Below are positions 12,008-24,962 of a stretch of 64,000 nt of DNA, one piece after another (positions within the stretch are counted from its first letter, which is position 1; the number at the start of each line of letters is the position of its first letter). This DNA is from Chromatium okenii. Lineage in GTDB: Bacteria; Pseudomonadota; Gammaproteobacteria; Chromatiales; Chromatiaceae. Made by a program: the position numbers and the translations under genes. The DNA lies in assembly GCF_002958735.1 (NCBI RefSeq), contig NZ_PPGH01000037.1, positions 186,001 through 250,000 on the forward strand, given 5' to 3'. The notes below the pieces were generated by a model. That model was not told the DNA's origin and made no database searches. It saw only the letters and a list, made by a program, of their open reading frames with translations.

Positions 12008-15000
12008 ATGATTGAAATTCAAAACTATTGGCGCGAACTTGATGAATTGCGGCGCATCGCGGGCGCAGAGAATGAAAGCATGTTACGCGCTGCGTTTCAA
12101 AATTTACTCCGTGATCTTGGTGAACAACAGCACTTAATTGTCGTGGCTGAATATCCATTCAAAGCGCCCAACGGAGCCAATTTACGCGCCGATGGTGTGT
12201 TATTAGATCGGTTGCGTTTAGTGCATGGCTGGTGGGAAGCAAAAGATGAAAAAGATGATTTAGAGAAAGAAATCGCCGCCAAATTAGCCAAAGGTTATCC
12301 CAACGATAACATCATTTTTGAAGATACCCGCACTGCCGTTTTATTACAGCAGGGCGCAGAAGTGATGCGTTGTGAAGTGACAGATGGCAAAGCATTGAAG
12401 CGGTTGCTAGATTGCTTTTTTAATTATGAATTGCCAGCAGTGCAGGATTTCCGCGTTGCTCGCAGTCAATTCATGGTTGAATTGCCGGGTGTGGCGCGGG
12501 CATTGAAAGAGTTGTTAGTTGCTGCGCACCGCAATCATGCCGCTTTTCAAGCGCAAGCAACTCAATTTTTTACATTGTGTCAACGGCAATTGGCGAACGC
12601 GTCACCAACAATCATGTGGATGAAATGCTGATTCAGCATATTCTCACCGATCAAATTTTTCGTGCCGTTTTCCCCAATATCAATTTTCATCAAGAAAATC
12701 ATTTAGCAGAAGCAATTGGGCAACTAGAAAAAACGTTTTTGCGCGGTGAAATGCGGATGGCGTTATTAAAACGCTTGGAACCCTATTTTGCTGCAATTCG
12801 CCGCACGGCTGCAAATACAATTACTTCCGCAGAAAAGCAGGATTTTCTCAAGCAAGTTTATGAAGATTTTTATACTGCTTATAATCCCAAAGATGCAGAT
12901 CGTTTAGGCGTTGTCTATACGCCCAGCGAGGCTGTGCGCTTCATTATTGCGGGTTGCGATTGGCTGGCGCAGCAGCATTTTAACAAGCGATTGGCGGATT
13001 CTGGTTTAGATATTCTTGATCCTTGCACGGGAACCGGCACCTTTATCGTCGATTTGATTGATTATCTGCGCGGTGATAAGCAGGCGTTAATCCGTAAATT
13101 TGACGGTGAAATCCACGCTAATGAGATTTCAATTCTACCGTATTACATTTCGTGCTTAAACATTGAGCAAGCCTATTATGAAGCAACTGAACAATGGCGC
13201 GAATTTAGCGGAGCCTGTTTTGTCAATACTTTAGAAAACTGGGGATTTCAGTTAAAACACAAAGGTTCAGTAAGTGATCTATTTGGCAGTATTACCAACG
13301 AAAACCAACTGCGCATTTTGAATCAAAATCAATGCACTATTCCGGTAATTTTAGGTAATCCACCCTATAACGCTAATCAGAAAAATGCGAACGACAATAA
13401 TCAAAATTATTTAGCTGAGTTGGTGGATAAACGCATTAAAGACACTTACATCGCTGAAAGCACGGCACAAAAAACCAAACTTTATGATCCTTATGTGCGA
13501 TTTTTGCGTTGGGCATCAGATCGAATTGGTGAACAGGGAATTATTGGCTTTATCACCAATCGCTCTTATCTTGATTCTCGTCAAGCGGATGGTTTGCGTA
13601 AAACTTTAGCAACTGAATTTCACGAATTTGGATTATTGATTTAATGAGTGATGTGCGTAAAAACCCAAAATATCTGGAACTCAACACAACATTTTTGGCA
13701 TTCAAACCGGTGTTGCCATCATGTTTTTAGTACGAAAACCAGCAGCAGTTGAGGACTGCGCTATTCGCTATATTGCACTGGATGATTTTCTCCCTGCAAC
13801 TGAAAAACGCCGCTGGTTACTCCGAAATCAACTGCGTGTTTTAGCAAGAGCTGGAGAATTTAATCGTATTACGCCAAATGAATGCGGCGAATGGTTAAAT
13901 CAACCGCACGAGGATTGGAGCAATTGGTTGGCAGTTGCTAGCAAAGAAGGAAAGGCGAAAAAAACGGATGAAGTTATTTTTCGGCTGTATTCGTTAGGCG
14001 TGGTAACAAGTCGGGATGAATGGGTGTATAGCCACACGCAAGCAAGTGTTAATGCGCGTTGTAAATACTTCGTTAATATCTACCGGCAAGAACAAGCACG
14101 ATGGAAGCGACTTGAGCACTCAGAAAACATTGAAAATTTTGTTACTCGTGATATTAAATGGACAACTGAATTAACCGCGTATCTCGTTAAAGGCACGACG
14201 CTAAAATATCAAAAAAAACGAGTTGTTCTCAGTCTGTATCGCCCTTTTGTCGAACTTTTTTTGTACTACGACAAAGTGATTGTGCATCGAACATATCAGC
14301 AAAATAATATCTTTCCAATTGGGTTAAAACCTGAAAATTTAGCGATTGGCATTTCAGGTACACCGCAGGCAAAACCGTTTCAAACGTTGGCAGTGTCAAT
14401 GCTGCCCTGTCTTGATTTACTGGAGAAAACCCAGTTTTTACCACTCTGGGTTTATGCCGTTGATGGCTCCAAACATGACAACATCACGAATTGGGCATTA
14501 ACGCAATTCCAACAGCATTATGCGAATACAGAAATCACCAAGCGCGATTTTTTAATTACGTTTACGCCGTGCTGCATGATCCGCGCTATCGGCACAAATT
14601 CGCTTTGAATCTCCAAGCCGAATTTCCGCGCATTCCGTTTCATCCTGAATTCACACAATGGGCGGCGATTGGCGCAACGTTAATTCAAGCTCATGCGTAT
14701 TTTGAGCAAGTCAAACCGTTTGCATTCAAGCGCATAGATCAAAAAACGGGAACGCCTAAATGCCGATTGAAAGCCGATAAAACAGCGGGATTAATTGAGA
14801 TTGATGGCGTGACGACTTTGGAAAATATCCCGCCAGCAGCATGGCAGTATCAACTCGGCAATCGCTCGGCATTGGAATGGGTGTTGGATCAATACAAAGA
14901 GAAAACGCCGAAGGATTTAACCATTCGTGAGCAATTCAATACCTATCGTTTGCTGACCATAAAGAGCAGGTGATTGAATTATTAGCGCGGGTGTGTCAGG

Positions 15001-15075: not shown

Positions 15076-16171
15076 TTAACGCTCAATTTCGGGCGGACAA
15101 ATTCCCAACGACACCATAATTAACGCGACATCCGACAATTGCGCACCAATTAACAGCGGTTCCAATAGCGTGAAAGCGTGAACTAATGACGGGCCGCGCA
15201 CTTGCACTCGGCGTAAGAATTCACTGCCATCGCCCGCCATGTAATAACTGTATGCACCCCGCGCTGATTCGGTTTGCACAAAGGTCTCACCTTTAGGAAT
15301 GATAAATTTACGATGTTTGGGCAATTTGCATTGAATCTCACCCGTTGGCGGCATTTGTTCAATCACTTGCCGCAGAATACGAATGCTTTGATACATCTCG
15401 GCGCGGCGTACTAATGCGCGAGCGTAAGCGTCGCCATCGGTTTGAACTGGAATCTCAAATTCTAATTGGTCATACGCCAAATAAGGCATATCACGGCGCA
15501 CGTCGCGGGCAATACCGCAGCCACGAATTACCGGTCCGCTATAACCATTCGCTAATGGCTTCAGCGCGATTGACGACGCCACATTTGCAGCCGTTTTTTC
15601 ACACCGTATTATCAAAAAATACGCGGTCGTATTCGGGCAACCGCTTGTCTAATTCATCCACAAGTCACTCAATCGCGTTAATAAACCGTCCGGTAAATCG
15701 CGCTTGACGCCGCCCGGATAGATGTACATGTGATACACCCGTCCGCCGGTGATTTCCTCAAATAAATCGAGAATATAATCGCGCTCACCAACCGCCCACT
15801 GCGGCACAATTCCATGTCCAATAGAACCGCCTTGACCGCCAACCATAAATAATGCGCTTGCAGTCGCGCCAGTTCTAAAATCAAACCGACGAATTCGCGC
15901 GTTCGCTAATTTCTAAACCGGCGAGCGTTTCAATTCCCCGCGCAAAATTTTCTTCATTCGGATCAGGTTCAGGAACGCAAATACGACACACAATAGTGAA
16001 TGCTTGAATAACGGTGCGCCGTTCAATGAGTTTTTCAAAACCGCGATGTAAATAACCGACATGCGTGGTCGCTTTAACGATGGTTTCGCCATCAAGATCA
16101 AGCTCCAAACTCATATTGCCGGTAACGCCGGGATGCTGCGGACCGTGAAAAATTTTGATCGTTTCGTTCAT
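15076..16171 (-). CDS. NuoD/[NiFe]-hydrogenase-like large subunit of an Mbx/Ehr-type complex, frameshifted as read
   Basis: Homologue of the 49-kDa NuoD subunit and of the catalytic subunit of group 4 membrane hydrogenases. The N-terminus (IFHGPQHPGVTGNMSLEL, then TTHVGYLHRGFEKLIE) is shared with both. At the position of the first [NiFe] motif it reads IVCRICVPEPDP, a CxxC. The C-terminus reads SLGICPPEIER, where hydrogenases have DPCxxC, so one of those two cysteines is kept and the other is Glu. Complex I NuoD has none of these. At least four single-base frameshifts (about 15915, 15850, 15655 and 15610) interrupt the frame as read, although conserved sequence continues. The four-base overlap with the NuoC-like gene at 16168-16171 supports the start. 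It is the last gene of the operon. Confidence 0.82.
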
Positions 16172-16725
16172 GCCGCATCTCCATTTGCTGCTGCCGCCGC
16201 TTTTTTGGCCTCTTTGCGGCGACGAATCGCCTCGCGGACATCCTGATTATCCTCACGCCCGCCGCGCATTTCGTAGGTGTCCTGCACGAATTTCAGCGTG
16301 TCAAACTCGCGGCGCATCGGCGGCGTGTGCGCCCAACCTTCCAACATGAAATCGCCGAGGCTGGGATGACCGCTGATCGGAATTCCAAACATTTCATGCA
16401 GTTCGCGCTCGAAAATCTCCGCCTGCGGCCATAGCGGGATCGCCGTTTCCAGCGCCGCGCCGTCGCGTCCGAGGTGCGTTTGCACGCCCAACACGCGGTC
16501 GCGCTTGGCAGTTTCGAGCACATACGTCAGACCAAACACGCCGTCTTCCATCCAATCGGCGCAGGCAATCGTGGTCAGGGTGACAAAACCGTGACTCTGT
16601 TTGAGCAGCCCGAGCAGCGAAAACAGTTGCGCCGGCGGCACACGCACGAACGCTTGCCGCTCGCCGCGCTGCATTTGTTCAATGATTTCAAAGCCATGAA
16701 GCTGTGGCAGCAGTGCATCCAACAT
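16168..16725 (-). CDS. NuoC-like 30-kDa subunit
   Basis: The 185-residue protein belongs to the NuoC/MbhK family, which bridges the small and large redox subunits. The family hallmark is AEIFERELHEMFGIPISGHP around residues 100-120, followed by the LEGWAHTPPMRREF segment. The C-terminus is a charged, Ala/Lys-rich tail. It overlaps the neighbouring genes by one and four bases, so it is translated as part of the operon. It is a separate polypeptide, not fused to NuoD as in some bacteria. Confidence 0.88.
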   Translation of the reverse strand: MLDALLPQLHGFEIIEQMQRGERQAFVRVPPAQLFSLLGLLKQSHGFVTLTTIACADWMEDGVFGLTYVLETAKRDRVLGVQTHLGRDGAALETAIPLWPQAEIFERELHEMFGIPISGHPSLGDFMLEGWAHTPPMRREFDTLKFVQDTYEMRGGREDNQDVREAIRRRKEAKKAAAAANGDAA

Positions 16726-17357
16726 CAGGCGACGCCTCCGGCGTGATACCAGTCATAGGTGTAATCCGGCGGCATGTTGTCGCCCAAAACGCGGCGCTGA
16801 TTGGCTTTGTACCAGTCGATATTTGCGCGGTAACGCTCAAAACCGCTGGGTGTACCCGCCGCGATACGTTGTTGCAGCGCCACAAAACCCTCAATCAACG
16901 CCTCGGGGCGCGGCATACAGCCGTTGACGTACATATCAACCGGAATGTAATGATCTAACTGTTTGATTGTGTTGTAAGAATCCCAATACATGCCGCCGTT
17001 AATCGTGCAACTGCCCAGCCCAATCACATATTTCGGCGCCTGCATTTGCTCATAACTGCGAATGACACGTTTGAGCGTTTTAATCGCAAGATAGCCGCTG
17101 ATGACCAGCACATCCGCCTGTCGGGGCGTCGCTGCGCCGATAATGCCGAAGCGTTCGGCGTCAAAGCGGCTCGTCATCAACGGGCGCATTTCAATCGCGC
17201 CGCAGCCGGTGCCATACGCCAGCACAAACAGGCTGCGCTGGCGAAACCACGCGATCAGCCGATCTAACGCGCCCAGCTCGTTGCCGGATTGCGCGAGCGA
17301 CGCTTCCAATTGTTGTTGTTCACATTGGAATCCTTCGCAATGTTCGTGGTGATACAT
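16725..17357 (-). CDS. NuoB-like small subunit with altered cluster ligands
   Basis: Homologue of NuoB and hydrogenase small subunits, which carry the proximal [4Fe-4S] cluster. The start at 17357 (MYHHEHCEGFQCEQQQ) has a GGAG site on the minus strand. The ligand region reads YGTGCGAIEM: one Cys where complex I has a tandem pair (CC) and hydrogenases have CxxC. The other two positions are normal (GLGSCTINGGMY and VNGCMPRPEA). An extra CEGFQC pair lies at the N-terminus. The cluster may therefore have an unusual fourth ligand. The frame is intact (210 residues). Confidence 0.85.
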   Translation of the reverse strand: MYHHEHCEGFQCEQQQLEASLAQSGNELGALDRLIAWFRQRSLFVLAYGTGCGAIEMRPLMTSRFDAERFGIIGAATPRQADVLVISGYLAIKTLKRVIRSYEQMQAPKYVIGLGSCTINGGMYWDSYNTIKQLDHYIPVDMYVNGCMPRPEALIEGFVALQQRIAAGTPSGFERYRANIDWYKANQRRVLGDNMPPDYTYDWYHAGGVA

Positions 17358-17358
17358 A

Positions 17359-18270
17359 TTAACTCCAAGGAAACCAAACGGTTGCAATCACGCCAATGAC
17401 GCCGAGACCGAGCGGAATTTTCCAAAAAAAGTCCACCGTCTGCTCAGTTCTGAGGCGTGGAAAGCTGGTGCTCACGGCCGCCGTCAATAGAAATAACGCA
17501 AACGTTTTGGCAATCAATGCCCAAATCGTCGTCGCTCCACCCAGAAATAAATCGGCAATTAACACCAGTTTTGCCACCGTCATCATCATGTTTTGCGTCA
17601 TCAATACGCCCAATAACCGTCCGCTGAATTCAACTCGCGGTCCGGCATATACCTCGACTGGCGCACCGACGACATCAAATGGTGACGCATGTTGGCTGGC
17701 CATAAACGGCAAAATCATGACAATAAACGCAATTGGATTAGTAATTAAATTCCAATGCGCAAAATCAGTTTGCGCCGCCATGATTGCGTGAACTGATGCG
17801 GTTTCATGCTGCACCATCACCAGTGCCAGCCCTAATAAAAACGGCACTTCTAAACCCATTAACCGCGTCAAGCCGCGAGTGACACCCATCACGCCGAATG
17901 GATTACCACTCGAACCAACTGCCAGCGCATTGCCGAGCGGGCCGACCACCAACAAATAGATAATTAGAATGAGATTGCCGGAATGGGAAAAGCCTTGCAG
18001 CCAATTGGAATCTTTCAAATAGGGCACGAATAACACCGTCGTCACTGCGCCCGCAAAAATAATCATCGGTCCGAAAAAAAACATCGGCCCATGAATAATG
18101 GTCTCGGTTTTGAATAAAAACTTCATATTGTCAAAGAAGTTTTGAAAAATGCTCGGTCCCCAACGCCGTTGCACTCGTGCATTGAATTGGCGATAAAAAC
18201 CGTAAAATAAAAAGCCCATGACATAGCTCATGCCGAGCATAGCGAAGGCGTCAATAATATAATGCGCCAT
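17359..18270 (-). CDS. NuoH-like membrane subunit
   Basis: A 303-residue polytopic membrane protein of the NuoH/MbhM/HycD family, which anchors the redox arm to the membrane and joins it to the ion-pumping arm. Family features include NARVQRRWGPSIFQNFFDNMKF near the N-terminus, the LGNALAVGSSGNPFGVMG segment, and the acidic loop GAPVEVYAGPRVEFSG, comparable with the quinone-cavity loop of NuoH. The ATG at 18270 lies five bases after the upstream stop. The LRTEQTVDFFWKIPL end is typical. The frame is intact. Confidence 0.9.
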   Translation of the reverse strand: MAHYIIDAFAMLGMSYVMGFLFYGFYRQFNARVQRRWGPSIFQNFFDNMKFLFKTETIIHGPMFFFGPMIIFAGAVTTVLFVPYLKDSNWLQGFSHSGNLILIIYLLVVGPLGNALAVGSSGNPFGVMGVTRGLTRLMGLEVPFLLGLALVMVQHETASVHAIMAAQTDFAHWNLITNPIAFIVMILPFMASQHASPFDVVGAPVEVYAGPRVEFSGRLLGVLMTQNMMMTVAKLVLIADLFLGGATTIWALIAKTFALFLLTAAVSTSFPRLRTEQTVDFFWKIPLGLGVIGVIATVWFPWS

Positions 18271-18275
18271 AGAAT

Positions 18276-20048
18276 TCACGCTCCGGTGACGGATTGAATA
18301 GTCAAGGTCACGGCGAAAATAAGCACCGCCAATAACAACCACGTTTGCGGATTGCTGCCGTATAGCGTCCCGATCACACCTGCTGCGGCCTGCGTTTGGC
18401 GCGTCAAACCGGCGTAAAACCCAGTCGTGGTATGGCGCAAAATCCAGCCAATCAGCGGCACTCGGCGCAATTCACGTCCCATTCCCGCGCCATAATGCAG
18501 CGGCGTGTCTGCCGTCGGCACCTCACCGCAGAAACTCAAATCATACGGACTGGCAGCGCGGTGCATGTTCCCGCGAATTAACAGGAATAACGCCGTTATT
18601 AAAACAAATACGGTTGCGAATACGCTCATTAGCACTACGCCGTCATAGCCACCATAATTGGTGCTCAATTGCGCCCACGTTGGCGCACCAATTGGCGTCA
18701 TATTCAAACCAATCAATACCGGATCAATTAACACGTCAATTGCCCAACCGGGGAAAATGCCCAGCGCCACCAGCATTCCCATTAAAACAATTTGCGGAAT
18801 CAGGTATTGCCAAGGCGCTTCGGTCGCAGTTTTTGCTTCCGGTGAATTGGCGTGACCCAGAAATGGACCATAAATCAGTTTATAGCAATACACAAAAGAC
18901 GCAGTGCTGGCGAGAATCATCGCCGCTAATAGCAACAACCAATGCGCTTCAATTAAACCAACGTACATTAAATACTTCGCTGCAAATCCCGGCAGCGGCG
19001 GCATTCCCGCCAGCCCGATAATGCCAATTAACACGCCAAAAAAGGAGATCGGCATTCGGCTGATGAGTTGACCAAGATCAATAAAACGGCGATGTCCGGT
19101 TTGCAGAATAATTCCGGCAATCGTAATAAATAACAGCAGTTTCACTAACGTATGCACCAGCGCCTGAAATAGCGCTCCACCAATTGCCAGTGAACTGCCG
19201 ACGCCCAACGCAGTGACGATATAACCGACTTGCGCGATGGATGAATACGCCAATAGCCGCTTCATATCTTCTTGGGAAATCGCTTTGAAAGTCGCAATGG
19301 TTGCCGTAATCACGCCAATCCACGCTAATACATAACCCGCCACCGGACCGTTGAGAAAGCGCCCGCTGATTTCACTAAAACCATCGGGAAATAACAGCGG
19401 CAATATCATTAAACCGTAAATGCCCATCTTTGACATTAATGCCGATAAAAAGGCGCTAAACAAATCGGGTGCTTGGTCGTAGCTGCGCGGCACCCATAAA
19501 TGCAAAGGTAACGCGCCGACTTTAATCAGGAATGCCAAACCGAATAAAACAAAGAGCACCAGCTTATCTGCTGTCAACAATCCATCAACGGCTTGAATAC
19601 GAAAATCATCGGTGATGCTGTATAAAAACAGCATTCCAGCCAGCAATAGAAATGCGGAGGCAAGGTTAAATAAAATATAGGACTGCGCACCTTCCAAATC
19701 AGTGCGCGGTGAACGCAGCAATAAGAGATAACTGCTCCATGTCATCATTTCCCAGCCGATGAAAAAGCCGATGAAATCGCCCGCCAATAACAGCAACTGC
19801 ATTCCTAATAACAGCAGTGCATAAAGCGCATACGCCGATTCATCGCTCTTCTCACGCAGCATTGGCACGGCAATTAAAGGCGCACCAATTGCCAGCAATA
19901 ACATGAAAAAAGCGGACAACGGCGTGAGATCAAATGACAGCGTGATGCCGTTAAATAACGACCACGCGACCGCGCCATCCCAGCTAAAAAGCGTGGCTGC
20001 TGGCGTTAGTGCGAGACCGAGAAAAAGAAGTTTGAACACTAAATTCAT
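18276..20048 (-). CDS. Antiporter-like proton-conducting membrane subunit (NuoL/M/MrpD family)
   Basis: A 590-residue polytopic protein of the proton-conducting transporter family (PF00361). The conserved Glu in FIGWEMMTWSSYLLLL (TM5) and Lys in FLIKVGALPLHLWVPRSYDQAP (TM7) are both present, followed by KRLLAYSSIAQVGYI and the HTLVKLLLFI region, as expected for a working channel. It is the second such subunit in the operon besides MnhD, as in Mbx complexes, which have two. The ATG at 20048 is preferred, although an in-frame TTG six bases upstream is possible. The frame is intact. Confidence 0.88.
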   Translation of the reverse strand: MNLVFKLLFLGLALTPAATLFSWDGAVAWSLFNGITLSFDLTPLSAFFMLLLAIGAPLIAVPMLREKSDESAYALYALLLLGMQLLLLAGDFIGFFIGWEMMTWSSYLLLLRSPRTDLEGAQSYILFNLASAFLLLAGMLFLYSITDDFRIQAVDGLLTADKLVLFVLFGLAFLIKVGALPLHLWVPRSYDQAPDLFSAFLSALMSKMGIYGLMILPLLFPDGFSEISGRFLNGPVAGYVLAWIGVITATIATFKAISQEDMKRLLAYSSIAQVGYIVTALGVGSSLAIGGALFQALVHTLVKLLLFITIAGIILQTGHRRFIDLGQLISRMPISFFGVLIGIIGLAGMPPLPGFAAKYLMYVGLIEAHWLLLLAAMILASTASFVYCYKLIYGPFLGHANSPEAKTATEAPWQYLIPQIVLMGMLVALGIFPGWAIDVLIDPVLIGLNMTPIGAPTWAQLSTNYGGYDGVVLMSVFATVFVLITALFLLIRGNMHRAASPYDLSFCGEVPTADTPLHYGAGMGRELRRVPLIGWILRHTTTGFYAGLTRQTQAAAGVIGTLYGSNPQTWLLLAVLIFAVTLTIQSVTGA

Positions 20049-20113
20049 CCTCAAAAAACCTGCCAGCCTGAATTAGAAATTGATAATCGCGGAATGAAAA
20101 CGCTTGCCCCGTA

Positions 20114-21439
20114 TTAACTCACTTGCCGATCTTTAACCCGACCAGCGAGAAAGCCTTTATTTCGGCGTTTTTCAAAAAACCGCAACACTAGATATGTGAT
20201 CCAACCAATCATCACCATGCTGATGCTGAATGCTCCGTATGCCATTGGCCAATTGATGCCTTGCGTCATCATCGAAAATTCAGACATACCGCCCATTCCT
20301 GCAATTACGTTAATAGGCATAAAAACAACGGTGATCGTCGTTAGTACCGAAACCCGCTGATTTTGATTGATGTTAATAAAACCCACTGTAGCAGCCATCA
20401 AAAAATTGATTTTTTCAAATAAAAATGCAGTATGACTATTCAGTGATTCGATGTCGCGTAATAACTCCTTCGCATCACTGATTTGATCTGATGAAATAAA
20501 ACGACCTCGCATTAAAAAAGACACCATGCGTTGGGTATCCAAGATATTACGCCGAATGCGTCCATTGAGGTCTTCTTGCTCTGCAATCTCTGCCAAAATG
20601 CCAGCAGCTTCTGCATCCGTCATGGCTTCACTTAATACTTGACGCCCCACTTCACCAAGCGCCGTATAAATGTCTTCTAAAGCATCGGCAGAGTATTCAA
20701 TATCTGCTCCATAAAGATCGAGTAAAACATCTTTACAATCGGAGACATAACCGGGTTGGTTGTGTGCTCTTAAACGCTGCAAGCGAAAAACTGGCAATTC
20801 TTCATCACGAACAGTAAACAAAATATCTTTATGTAAAATAAATGCGACCGGAACACTGCGCGAATCATCTTCACGGTCTAATAAAAAATTGGAATGAAGG
20901 TGTACTTCATCATTTTCTTCAACATAAAAACGCGCACTCACTTCTAAATCAGTCGCATCGTCAGCGGTGGGCAATTCCAAACCGTAATACTGTCCGATGC
21001 TTCGCCGTTCGCCTTTTGATGCGCCAAGTAGATCAATCCAAATCGGATGAATTGCAGTAAGGTCTTGGCGGCAAGTAATAGGAACTCGTTGCAAGCGCCC
21101 ATTAATAAGCTCGAAAGCATTCATTTGACCCTTACTATCACGCGGCTCACGCAGTCCCACTAATGATTCACGCAGTGCATCGGAAAGTTCCCACAGAATA
21201 TCGTCTTGTCGATCTTCATCCACCTGACGCCATAAACCCTTGGCATCATCAATTGACATGGCAGAAAGAATCTCACCGATTTCAGTTGCTGATAACCGCC
21301 CTAAAAGACGCTGTAATTCAACCAAATGTTGTTTATGAACCAGCGTCTCAATAAGATCATTGCGTGGTGTTGCTTGGTTATACAGCATACTTTCAACGAG
21401 TTTCTGCTTATTTAATAGATCAAGTATCTTTTGCATCAT
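20114..21439 (-). CDS. CorA-like transporter with MgtE-type N-domain and altered GMN motif
   Basis: The 441-residue protein starts with an MgtE intracellular N-domain-like region (LVELQRLLGRLSATEIGEIL), has the CorA-like cytoplasmic beta/alpha domain, and ends with two membrane helices in the CorA layout. Where CorA has its GMN selectivity signature it reads INVIAGMGGMSEF. CorA members move Mg2+, Ni2+, Co2+ or Zn2+; the changed signature makes the substrate uncertain. It sits inside the Mrp/Nuo-like operon between mnhD and the second antiporter subunit, in the same direction, so it may supply or sense an ion needed by the complex. The start at 21439 is chosen for family length; a longer frame opens upstream. 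Confidence 0.78.
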   Translation of the reverse strand: MMQKILDLLNKQKLVESMLYNQATPRNDLIETLVHKQHLVELQRLLGRLSATEIGEILSAMSIDDAKGLWRQVDEDRQDDILWELSDALRESLVGLREPRDSKGQMNAFELINGRLQRVPITCRQDLTAIHPIWIDLLGASKGERRSIGQYYGLELPTADDATDLEVSARFYVEENDEVHLHSNFLLDREDDSRSVPVAFILHKDILFTVRDEELPVFRLQRLRAHNQPGYVSDCKDVLLDLYGADIEYSADALEDIYTALGEVGRQVLSEAMTDAEAAGILAEIAEQEDLNGRIRRNILDTQRMVSFLMRGRFISSDQISDAKELLRDIESLNSHTAFLFEKINFLMAATVGFININQNQRVSVLTTITVVFMPINVIAGMGGMSEFSMMTQGINWPMAYGAFSISMVMIGWITYLVLRFFEKRRNKGFLAGRVKDRQVS

Positions 21440-21486
21440 TAGGATATGCGCGTGAATTGGTGTCGATTGTCGAGCTGGTTCTGGTG

Positions 21487-22961
21487 CTATCGCCCCAACA
21501 CTGCATTTAATAACGCCTCGCGTCCCAATAGCGCCTGCGCTGCTTGTTGCAACCAATCTTCCAATAAGAACGGCGCGACACCCAATACAATCAGCAACCC
21601 AGCAATGACTAGCAATGGCGCATAATTTAAGGTTTTTTCACCTTCTATTTTAGCCATTGGCAGCGCATCAGTCGGCGCGTAAAAAACCCGAATCCAGCGG
21701 AAATAATATCCCGCTTCAATTAAAGCAGCAGTCAGAATAAGCGCCACTGGCCAGAACGTTTGCACGTCAGCAAAGCCTTTCAGAATCCACAATTTGCTGA
21801 TAAAGCCACTGAATGGCGGCAAGCCTAAAACTGCCAATGCGCCCAGCACAAATAATCCCGCTGCCAGCGGCATCGTGCGACTTAAACCTGTAAATCTGCC
21901 AATTTGAGTGATGCGTATTGCCGCAACATCAGCGCCGCCAGTAGGAATAGCAGCACTTTAATTAACGTGTGATTGATCATGTGAAATAACGCGCCTGCTG
22001 TCGTTGCTTCAGAAGCAAATGCCAGCGCCAACGTGATGAGTCCCACTTGACCAAGTGATGAATACGCCAACATGCGCCGTAAATCATTCTGGCGCAGCGC
22101 AACTAATTCGGCAACGATCATTGTGATTGCGCCCAGCGCCATTAACCAATTCCGCGCTACAGTGGGATCGGCGAGCAGAATAAAGGTTAAATGGAAGAGC
22201 ACGAATAAAAAGGCTTTGACTAATACGCCAGAATACAGAGCGGTGATTTCAGGATCGCTGCCGCGATAAATATCTGGGCACCCAGAAATTAAATGGGAAC
22301 AGCTCGGCTTTAATGCCTAAACCAATCAGCATTAACAGCCCAATCAATAATTGCATCTGCGCTGGCATGTTGCCGAAAGCCTGAGCAAGGCAGCGATATT
22401 TAGTTGACCCAGTTTGCAAATACAGCAGCACGATGGCGAATAAAATAAAGATTGCGGCGACCGAGCCACAATCATATTTTAAGCCTGCTTCCAGTGCAGT
22501 TTTATCGCGGCGAATGGCTGCCAGTGCATACGCGCTCACGCCGACAATTTCAATGAAAACGTACAGATTGAAGATGTCACCGGTCAATACCATGCCGTTG
22601 CTGCCGGCAATGAGCAGCAAGATTAAAATGAATGCGGGACGTTCGCGTAAATGCGCTGCGCTGTTATCCAACCAAATAAATGCTGCGACGATTGCACCCG
22701 CGAAACTGAATAGCGCCACTAATAATAACGCGACTGCATCTAAATGCAGATGAATACCCAGCGGCGGGGCAATGACAATGGTTTCTAAAATCGGGCAATG
22801 CGGACTGTCGGCAGCCATGACAGCGCGAGCGCGAATAATGCGACTTGGGCGCTAAATAATACCGGCATTAACAATCGCCACCGTACCCACAGCGGCGCTA
22901 AAAATGCCAGCAATAAGGGGACGGCGATGAACCAAACGGGAGTGAAATGCAGTGTCATCAT
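21487..22961 (-). CDS. MrpD/MnhD-like antiporter subunit, frameshifted as read
   Basis: Homologue of MrpD/MbhH, the cation/proton antiporter subunit. The start at 22961 overlaps the mnhC stop by one base. Family sequence is found in successive pieces: FTPVWFIAVPLLLAFLAP; then GIHLHLDAVALLLVALFSFAG and FNLYVFIEIVGVSAY; then NDLRRMLAYSSLGQVGLI; then GLPPFSGFISKLWILKGF. Frameshifts occur near 22808 (a C is missing), 22272 (CCC where CC would restore WVPDIYRG) and 21883. Each is a one-base change in a short C run with conserved sequence on both sides, which favours sequence error over decay. Confidence 0.82.
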
Positions 22962-23338
22962 CAATCCTTTAATTCAGTCATCTCAGCGACGCTAACCTTG
23001 CCGGTTAAACGGTGATATTGAATTGCCATTGAAGTGCCCAGCGCAGTCACGGCGACGCCAATCACAATCGCGGTGAGCGTTAATGCTTGCGGAATGGGAT
23101 CGCTCATGCCAGTGAATGCAATTAAACCATCAGAAAGAATTGGCGCAGTTTCACCGGGCGTGGTGGCGATGGCGATTAAAATGAGATACACCGCCAATTC
23201 CATGATTTCAATGCTGACGAAAATTTTCAATAAATGCCGTTTCGCCAGCAGTCCGTAAAGTCCAATGAAAAATAGAATGAGGCTGCCAATTAAATAAATG
23301 CTATGCAGCACCGCTGGGCTATCGAGAAATTCCAACAT
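22961..23338 (-). CDS. mnhC: MrpC/MnhC-like (NuoK-family) subunit
   Basis: A 125-residue membrane protein with three predicted helices, like NuoK/MrpC/MbhG. It shows FIGLYGLLAKRHLLKIFVSIEIM in the first half and QALTLTAIVIGVAVTALG in the third helix, both typical. The ATG at 23338 lies two bases after the mnhB stop. It is part of the membrane antiporter arm. The frame is intact. Confidence 0.9.
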   Translation of the reverse strand: MLEFLDSPAVLHSIYLIGSLILFFIGLYGLLAKRHLLKIFVSIEIMELAVYLILIAIATTPGETAPILSDGLIAFTGMSDPIPQALTLTAIVIGVAVTALGTSMAIQYHRLTGKVSVAEMTELKD

Positions 23339-23340
23339 GA

Positions 23341-23777
23341 TTACAGTTCCTCGGCAGCGCGGGCGGAAACCGGCGTGTCGTGATCGGCTTCGAGCATGTC
23401 TTGAAAAATTGCGCCCACTTCTGCGCCAACTTTGATCCCAACTAACAGATAAATCAGCGGAATCACGCCGGCGCTGACCAGTTGCCCATCGCTGCGACCG
23501 GATGCGGCAGGAAGTTGCCGAGAAAGCTGGCGGTGGTCACGAAGACCAATCCCAGCATTCCAAACAGGACGAAGCCGCTGCCGGCGAAGGATTCCGTCCA
23601 GCCGAGTGGCGCGTGATCGAGGTTGAATTTGGGATCGGCGATCATCCGCAAAAAGAACGCGGTGGCGACGATGACGCCGCCTTGAAAGCCGCCGCCGGGT
23701 GAGAGATGGCCGTGCAGCACGATGTAGACGCCGAGCAGCAGGAGCGCCGGAAATAGCAGGCGCGTTCCCGTCACCAT
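23341..23777 (-). CDS. mnhB: MrpB/MnhB-like subunit, one frameshift as read
   Basis: MnhB/MbhF-family membrane subunit of the antiporter arm. The first part carries the signature LHGHLSPGGGFQGGVI. As read, the frame ends at 23463, but the second half of the family (SAGVIPLIYLLVGIKVGAE) continues in the next frame to a stop at 23341-23343. Restoring one C near 23488 (GGGCCAACTGG instead of GGGCAACTGG) joins them. The start overlaps the upstream stop. Confidence 0.85.
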
Positions 23778-24112
23778 TACTTCATTGGATGGTTGTGGCG
23801 GTCGCGGGATGCTGGCGTGGCACCGAGTCCGCCCGCAAACAACATGCCGACGCCAGTCGCGGCGAGAAAGAGCACCGTGACTTCGCCGAGCGTGTCAAAG
23901 CCGCGATAACTCACGACCACCGTCGTGACGGCATTGGCGGACGCAGTTTCGCTGTTGCGTGCCAGATACAGATCGCCGACGCCGTTGCTCGGCGCATCCA
24001 AGCCGTGATTGAGCAGCAGCGTCAAATGCAGCATCAGCAGCCAGCCGCACAGCGCGATCAGCAGCAGCGTGTGAACGCGGAAACGTTTCCGCAGCGGGAG
24101 ACGACGGCTCAT
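23777..24112 (-). CDS. MbhE/MrpA-C-terminal-like membrane subunit
   Basis: A 111-residue protein with an N-terminal membrane helix (HTLLLIALCGWLLMLHLTLL), the NAVTTVVVSYRGFDTLGEV segment and a second helix. This segment corresponds to the extreme C-terminal part of MrpA and to MbhE in archaeal complexes. Starts and stops overlap the neighbours by one to four bases, so it belongs to a tightly coupled operon. Here it is a separate gene, as in Mbh/Mbx, not fused into a large MrpA. Confidence 0.8.
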   Translation of the reverse strand: MSRRLPLRKRFRVHTLLLIALCGWLLMLHLTLLLNHGLDAPSNGVGDLYLARNSETASANAVTTVVVSYRGFDTLGEVTVLFLAATGVGMLFAGGLGATPASRDRHNHPMK

Positions 24113-24363
24113 TGCAAGTCCTTCCGTTCAGTGCGACCGAGCTGGCGCACGCCCATCAGCATCACAAAACTGCTGGCTGCCGCGCCAATTGCCGCTTCCG
24201 TCAGCGCCACGTCGGGCGCGTGTAATAAGAAAAATTGCCCGACTGCGCCCAAACTCAGCAGCGATAACCCGAGTGCGGATTGCAGCAAATCGGGCTGGCG
24301 AATGGCGAGCAGGGCTGCGCCGATCATCCACGCGAAAAATAAAATGGCGAGTAATCCGGTCAT
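24109..24363 (-). CDS. MbhD-like (DUF4040) membrane subunit
   Basis: An 84-residue protein with three hydrophobic stretches and the DUF4040 pattern LLSLGAVGQFFLLHAPDVALTEAAIGA, which corresponds to the C-terminal part of MrpA and to MbhD, and resembles NuoJ. The ATG at 24363 overlaps the mnhG stop (ATGA). Together with the next gene it replaces the C-terminal domain of MrpA as separate polypeptides. Confidence 0.82.
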   Translation of the reverse strand: MTGLLAILFFAWMIGAALLAIRQPDLLQSALGLSLLSLGAVGQFFLLHAPDVALTEAAIGAAASSFVMLMGVRQLGRTERKDLQ

Positions 24364-24713
24364 GCTGCGACCTCTTTGGGATCCGTTTCTGCTGCGAGTG
24401 CGGCTTGGCGTTCGGCGCAGGCATCGCAGGCGAGTGGCACCATCTGCGCTCCGCTGCGATATGCCGCCCGCGCCAGCACTGAGGAACTCAGCGGATTGGT
24501 CAATAAAATGAAGATGGCGATGATGAGCAGTTTCGGTGCCCAAGCTGGCGCGAGGCAGGCAACGCCGAGCAGTGTGAGTAACGAACCGAGGGAGGTTGCT
24601 TTCGCGCCTGCGTGCATTCGCGTGAATACATCGGGCATCCGAATTAAACCCAAGCCGCTGACCCAAAAGAAAAATAATCCGCCGGACATCAGGATATAGC
24701 CGAGCGTTTCCAC
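24360..24713 (-). CDS. mnhG: MrpG/MnhG-like subunit
   Basis: A 117-residue membrane protein of the MnhG/MbhC family. The first helix and loop read LGYILMSGGLFFFWVSGLGL, followed by the family block RMPDVFTRMHAGAKATSLG. Two further helices lead to a Cys-containing hydrophilic tail (LACDACAERQ). It begins directly after the mnhF stop. The frame is intact. Confidence 0.9.
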   Translation of the reverse strand: METLGYILMSGGLFFFWVSGLGLIRMPDVFTRMHAGAKATSLGSLLTLLGVACLAPAWAPKLLIIAIFILLTNPLSSSVLARAAYRSGAQMVPLACDACAERQAALAAETDPKEVAA

Positions 24714-24962
24714 TTAAACCCCCTTTTCTAAAAAGCGGCTGAATAAGATCACGCCCGCAAAGCCGACGACTGCGAAAATGAGCGCCACATCCAAATAAAT
24801 GCTGCGTTGAAACCACAGTGATAACAGCGCCAGCAGTGCAATGACGAGAATGGACAGCGTATCGAGCGCGAGGATGCGATTAGCGGCATCAGGGCCTTGA
24901 AAAAACCGCCATAAAATCATCAGGATCGGCGGCAACAGCAGGAGGATCATCACAGCAAGCAT
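24714..24962 (-). CDS. mnhF: MrpF/MnhF-like subunit, first gene of the operon
   Basis: An 82-residue protein with three helices and the MrpF/MbhB signature GPDAANRILALDTLS. It is the first clear gene of the leftward operon ending at 15076. MrpE (MbhA), which normally precedes MrpF, is absent: the 239 bases up to tRNA-Ser hold no plausible gene. Confidence 0.9.
   Translation of the reverse strand: MLAVMILLLLPPILMILWRFFQGPDAANRILALDTLSILVIALLALLSLWFQRSIYLDVALIFAVVGFAGVILFSRFLEKGV

Follow-up and report, generated by a model that had tools for sequence, protein, structure and literature searches.

A putative bacterial counterpart of the archaeal sulfane-sulfur reductase MBS in Chromatium okenii

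Judged by sequence, the purple sulfur bacterium Chromatium okenii carries an operon for a bacterial complex of the type of the Pyrococcus membrane-bound sulfane-sulfur reductase (MBS, formerly Mbx), which is neither a complex I nor a hydrogenase. The operon lies in a stretch of 64,000 nucleotides, hereafter the window, from the genome of strain LaCa (assembly GCF_002958735.1, contig NZ_PPGH01000037.1, positions 186,001 to 250,000). Of the 13 subunits of the archaeal-type complex (A, B, C, D, E, G, H, H', J, K, L, M, and N), 11 have their counterparts in the window operon, while N and A are encoded behind nuoN on another contig, completing the set. We predict, with moderate confidence, that the operon and this mbsN-mrpE pair together support electron transfer between ferredoxin and polysulfide, coupled to Na+/H+ transport. 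The prediction draws on the subunit set, its split over two loci, an MBS-type cysteine pattern, an MbsN free of an NAD(P)H domain, and the conservation of most antiporter residues.

Relationship to MBS, complex I, and hydrogenases

All six subunits searched against the PDB (L, J, H', M, H, and N) have a chain of the MBS structure (6u8y) as their top match; the counterparts of the other seven were assigned by Pfam. In a profile search, MbsL scores 385 bits with MBS, versus 276 with the best complex I chain and 184 with the membrane-bound hydrogenase (MBH); the corresponding values for MbsJ are 210, 137, and 97 bits. MBS also outscores MBH for MbsH' (204 versus 139 bits), MbsM (132 versus 75), and the DSM 169 copy of MbsH (243 versus 188), and it outscores the next chain for the LaCa copy of MbsN, encoded on contig C17 (68 versus 43). 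In a maximum-likelihood tree of 35 rows, the Chromatium MbsL groups with archaeal MBS in a 30-row clade (support, 98/99). Outside this clade fall the organism's own complex I and hydrogenase, MBH, the formate hydrogenlyase (FHL), and a HyfG-like protein, with complex I represented by one row and with a program warning of long branches meeting among the hydrogenase and HyfG-like rows. The deepest forks within the clade are weaker (90/89 and 92/89). Farther in, the group closest to the Chromatiaceae rows is Campylobacterota (98/97), followed by a Spirochaetales row (100/99) and by an Acidobacteria row (96/95), a nesting that suggests transfer between phyla.

MbsL keeps one cysteine of the first NiFe pair in 81/81 rows, like C85 of Pyrococcus furiosus MbsL, and one of the second pair in 80/81, like C385; the exception is a copy on contig C9 that is cut by a frame break. 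Three outgroup rows are excluded from this count, and two from that of the MbsJ motif GTGCG, which occurs in 72/72 rows and is three residues shorter than in the organism's own hydrogenase. MbsJ residues C62, C127, and C157 are invariant among 14 aligned rows. In P. furiosus, this three-cysteine arrangement is described as leaving one cluster iron without a cysteine, the proposed polysulfide-binding spot, and the nearby C25 as dispensable (PMC7684303). The C25 position is a glycine in Chromatium, and its cysteine is retained in a more distant bacterial form (locus L126). MbsL has Thr and Val in place of two residues of the organism's own complex I, His and Tyr, that are taken as quinone ligands and that we read as Nqo4 H38 and Y87. 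Finally, 8 of the 10 antiporter residues listed in PMC7684303 are identical by eye in the DSM 169 copies (MbsH E138, K250, H330, and K393; MbsH' E128, K217, K248, and K399).

A preliminary description of the window, made from the letters alone, had recognized an Mbh/Mbx plan instead of complex I or a plain Mrp antiporter, which the six best PDB matches and the supported NuoD clade sharpen to MBS. Its argument from separate mbhD and mbhE genes is weak, since mbhE is fused to mrpB in DSM 169, as described for archaeal MbsE (PMC8415708). It had also considered that the NuoD- and NuoB-like proteins might belong to ordinary complex I, or that this might be the only nuo locus; by PDB match, residues, and the NuoD tree, both proteins fall outside complex I, and a separate nuo locus is present on contig C17 (nuoE, nuoF, and nuoG were not searched for).

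Three other identities were considered and failed. For complex I, the PDB matches of NuoD and NuoB, the tree branch, and the quinone-site residues all differ. A group 4 [NiFe] hydrogenase is contradicted by the single cysteine per Ni pair in MbsL, all four being present in the organism's own hydrogenase. A stand-alone Mrp antiporter does not account for nuoH, nuoB, nuoC, and nuoD, which follow in the same conserved operon wherever the loci extend that far. The hydrogenase is itself encoded on contig C36 (L009:5391-11096) by a group-4-type [NiFe] operon with the four Ni cysteines (RICGIC and DPCVSCNER) and with MBH as the best PDB match, in contrast to the statement in PMC6374484 that no hydrogenase is predicted in the LaCa genome. 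The HyfG-like protein, named by eye, has 558 amino acids, lacks the Ni cysteines, and is encoded on contig C14 (L011:8880-10556).

The MbsN subunit, gene exchange, and distribution

The absence of a NuoI-like ferredoxin and of MrpE, noted in the preliminary description, applies to the surroundings of the operon but not to the genome. MbsN (C17:110859-111245) and MrpE (C17:111267-111734), 74% and 63% identical to the respective Thiocystis violacea queries (L022), are encoded directly after a gene of the separate complex I operon on contig C17 that was identified as nuoN from its position and by eye. Once mbsN had been found in trans, a complex devoid of any ferredoxin-like subunit was dropped. 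The LaCa MbsN is a stand-alone protein with two 4Fe-4S motifs. LaCa, DSM 169 (L123), and C. weissei (L124) have the order nuoN-mbsN-mrpE in common; the pair of Allochromatium warmingii (L125) occupies another site, ahead of a gene that by eye resembles that of malic enzyme. Such a two-operon split, with the entry subunit behind nuoN, raises the question of coexpression or subunit sharing with complex I.

MbsN exists in two forms. The comparison covers 80 loci, the best of 470 confirmed stretches, so that the phyla named here are not a full census. By hand count, the MbsN that follows NuoD is stand-alone in 36 loci, fused to a GltD-like domain in 36, truncated or missing at the end of a contig in 5, and absent from the locus in 3 (L014 from DSM 169, L015 from C. 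weissei, and L018). The fused proteins total 589 to 742 amino acids, and four stand-alone cases (L019, L024, L025, and L050) are overextended or broken reading frames. In all 36 stand-alone loci, mrpE follows mbsN; of the 36 fused loci, 23 have it upstream of mrpF, and the remaining 13 do not contain mrpF. Fused forms (L055-L093 and L126-L129) occur in Acidobacteria, Bacteroidota, Ignavibacteriota, Calditrichota, and other gammaproteobacteria, and the GltD-like domain is missing from MbsN of Chromatiaceae and Campylobacterota. The LaCa MbsN aligns to positions 6 to 130 of the 611-position model PRK13984, under the model cut-off because it covers only part of the model, and the best matches of the fused flavoprotein-like domain in the LaCa genome are only 31 to 33% identical.

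Given its homology to GltD-type proteins, the fused form probably makes an NAD(P)H-linked MBS. In the MbsL tree, the stand-alone bacterial form makes up one clade (Spirochaetales, Campylobacterota, and Chromatiaceae) within the fused-form rows, and loss of the GltD-like domain would therefore be the simplest reading. The two forms offer a natural comparison between NAD(P)H and ferredoxin as the partner.

The two parts of the Chromatium system seem to have had different recent histories. The operon DNA of LaCa and DSM 169 is 96.4% and 95.9% identical in two long blocks, compared with 72% directly upstream on the same two contigs and 75 to 80% in the nuoN-mbsN-mrpE region. A recent exchange between Chromatium lineages that involved the core operon and left out mbsN-mrpE is therefore probable. 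Between LaCa and C. weissei, identity per kilobase of the operon is 80 to 88%; the flank is 79% identical, and the nuoN-mbsN-mrpE region 80%. LaCa and DSM 169 look like different species that share an exchanged operon. The ratio of nonsynonymous to synonymous substitution rates (dN/dS) between DSM 169 and C. weissei is 0.045 to 0.131 for six subunits and 0.03, with dS near saturation, for MbsN; with values this low, the core operon and mbsN both look constrained.

Among the 210 genomes of the order, a close MbsL (at least 76% identity) and a close MbsN (at least 68%) occur in the same 18, LaCa being included on the strength of its broken copies. The two proteins are encoded together in 14 of these and apart in LaCa, DSM 169, C. 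weissei, and A. warmingii. All 18 carriers have pufM, versus 78 of the 210 genomes overall (75 above the cut-off), a hypergeometric probability of 5e-9 that ignores relatedness. A further 84 of the 210 have more distant MbsL matches (46 to 54% identity), and the four such loci that were fetched all have the GltD-fused MbsN.

Organization of the operon in the window

The preliminary description gave the genes of the leftward operon, from mrpF, mrpG, mbhD, mbhE, mrpB, mrpC, and mrpD through the second antiporter gene to nuoH, nuoB, nuoC, and nuoD, with correct coordinates (Table 1). Its gene list stands with two corrections: mrpB, mrpD, and nuoD are interrupted in the window, where mbhE/mrpB looks split, and a CorA-family gene had gone unmentioned.

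Table 1. Features of the MBS-type system in the window (minus sign, leftward) and on contig C17
Feature	Position	Strand	Basis
mrpF (MbsB counterpart)	24714..24962	-	PF04066, 67 bits
mrpG (MbsC counterpart)	24360..24713	-	PF03334, 85 bits
mbhD-like (MbsD counterpart)	24109..24363	-	PF13244, 61 bits
mbhE + mrpB region (MbsE counterpart), interrupted	23340..24112	-	PF20501 + PF04039 in DSM 169 copy; low end placed from DSM 169
mrpC (MbsG counterpart)	22961..23338	-	PF00420 in DSM 169 copy
mrpD (MbsH counterpart), interrupted, three frames	21487..22961	-	Start placed from DSM 169; 495-aa DSM 169 copy: 6u8y_H best PDB match, 243.5 bits
CorA-family transporter gene, not a subunit	20114..21442	-	PF01544, 132 bits
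Second antiporter-like subunit (MbsH' counterpart)	18276..20054	-	6u8y_X best PDB match, 204.5 bits
nuoH-like (MbsM counterpart)	17359..18342	-	6u8y_M best PDB match, 131.7 bits
nuoB-like (MbsJ counterpart)	16725..17387	-	6u8y_J best PDB match, 210.4 bits; proximal [4Fe-4S] cluster, cysteines C62, C127, C157
nuoC-like (MbsK counterpart)	16168..16725	-	PF00329, 80 bits
nuoD-like (MbsL counterpart), interrupted	15076..16171	-	6u8y_L best PDB match with profile, 384.9 bits
mbsN + mrpE (MbsA counterpart)	C17:110859-111734, outside window		Own-genome search

The LaCa assembly, a PacBio draft, comprises 45 contigs and 3,784,749 bases. C. okenii DSM 169 has uninterrupted mrpB, mrpD, and nuoD frames and a single mbhE-mrpB gene, whose product has 257 amino acids; many small indels distinguish the window from DSM 169 in the mbhE/mrpB region. 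Contig C9 of the LaCa assembly is 98% identical over 4.3 kb to the right part of the operon, and its nuoD is broken at a different place from that of the window. Since the nuoD breaks differ between two contigs of one assembly and the frames are open in DSM 169, the interruptions are most likely errors of the draft. In LaCa and C. weissei, the CorA-family gene separates mrpD from the second antiporter gene, and it is not there in DSM 169; CorA was dropped as a subunit, as C. weissei alone has it inside the operon among the 80 fetched loci. Beside nuoD lies a restriction-modification-like gene (12008-14973, named by eye), which is broken in the window too and of which DSM 169 has two tandem copies after nuoD.

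Proposed function and comparison with known systems

The redox reaction, which the preliminary description had left unspecified, can be narrowed to a likely couple: the complex is likely a ferredoxin:polysulfide oxidoreductase that pumps Na+/H+. In the dark, MbsN would receive electrons from ferredoxin that had been reduced, for example, by a pyruvate:ferredoxin oxidoreductase (PFOR)-like enzyme whose gene is present in the genome. Polysulfide formed from stored sulfur would be cleaved at the three-cysteine cluster of MbsJ, and the energy released would drive ion transport via MbsH, MbsH', and the Mrp module, yielding both an electron sink and an ion gradient during glycogen fermentation. Polysulfide-reducing chemistry has been shown for the P. 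furiosus complex (PMC7684303), and C. okenii possibly oxidizes glycogen to polyhydroxybutyrate (PHB) while reducing stored sulfur to H2S (PMC6374484). The accessible text of the latter study suggests stored sulfur as a possible dark electron sink and names no enzyme; the operon is a concrete candidate.

Several observations weigh against this proposal. The PFOR match comes in broken pieces and under the family cut-off, no sulfur gene was recognized beside the operon, and pyruvate:ferredoxin oxidoreductase genes are near the operon in only 1 of the 80 loci. By eye in the DSM 169 copies, MbsH E219 is replaced by Lys and MbsH' H336 by Gln. The close form is also missing from 60 of the 78 genomes with a pufM match, probably including that of the model strain A. 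vinosum DSM 180, so purple sulfur bacteria as a group do not require it. In one Sulfurovum locus, pyruvate:ferredoxin-oxidoreductase-like genes (L037:13121-16363, named by eye) lie about 2 kb after nuoD.

The main rival, against which the sequence does not decide, is reverse operation: in the light, the same complex would mainly use the ion gradient to lift electrons from sulfide or short polysulfides onto ferredoxin, which would supply nitrogenase and other reductions. The structural evidence is the same as for a dark reductase, the carriers are sulfide-oxidizing phototrophs (pufM in 18/18), and the nearest relatives come from Campylobacterota, for example Sulfurovum; nevertheless, we consider it unlikely, as rnfB has two matches above the cut-off in the genome, making another route to reduced ferredoxin likely, and the P. 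furiosus MBS acts as a reductase (PMC7684303). An MBS-like frame might also serve another acceptor, as a ferredoxin:NAD(P), ferredoxin:quinone, or organic disulfide enzyme. The substrate cannot be read from the sequence, Mbx was formerly considered a ferredoxin:NADP oxidoreductase (PMC6349859), and the mechanism could act on organic disulfides according to PMC7684303. Still, the replacement of the putative quinone ligands by Thr and Val, and an MbsN without the GltD-like domain fused to it in other phyla, make this a rather improbable reading. As for a decaying or nonfunctional operon, the interrupted mrpB, mrpD, and nuoD and the detachment of mbsN-mrpE could be taken as its signs, but the break positions differ between two contigs of one assembly, the neighboring restriction-modification gene and the PFOR-like gene are likewise broken, and DSM 169 and C. 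weissei have uninterrupted frames for these genes, with dN/dS values of 0.03 to 0.13; decay is thus very improbable.

Returning to the dark reductase, we tentatively suggest a wider scenario, which we hold with less than even confidence. Some purple sulfur bacteria would respire their stored sulfur in the dark with an MBS of archaeal type and keep the energy as an ion gradient. This complex would have arisen from an NAD(P)H-linked bacterial form by loss of the flavoprotein domain, and in Chromatium it would take its entry subunit from the complex I operon, a recently exchanged core working with resident MbsN and MbsA. If so, ion-pumping sulfane-sulfur respiration, known from hyperthermophilic archaea, would extend to phototrophs and Campylobacterota. 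In the open-licence literature we found no report of MBS in Chromatiaceae or Campylobacterota; reviews in subscription journals were not covered, and priority is not claimed.

Like the P. furiosus MBS (PDB ID 6u8y), the Chromatium complex has counterparts of all 13 subunits, including two antiporter subunits, a fused MbsE (in the DSM 169 copy), and a stand-alone MbsN with two 4Fe-4S motifs, along with one cysteine per NiFe pair and a short proximal-cluster loop. It differs in being bacterial and split over two loci with mbsN-mrpE behind nuoN, as well as in the Gly, Lys, and Gln at MbsJ C25, MbsH E219, and MbsH' H336. A hydrogenase-like L subunit without a full Ni site, combined with Mrp-type subunits, is also the definition of the energy-converting hydrogenase-related (Ehr) complexes (PMC6349859); Ehr is, however, an umbrella term, whereas the tree and the residues allow the Chromatium complex to be placed beside MBS. 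MBH and other group 4 [NiFe] hydrogenases share a similar subunit plan, but two of their four Ni cysteines are missing here, and the L subunit scores far lower with MBH than with MBS. With respiratory complex I, represented by the organism's own nuo locus on C17, the complex has homologous B, C, D, H, I, and antiporter subunits in common, while it occupies a separate locus and a separate tree branch and has different cluster and quinone-site residues.

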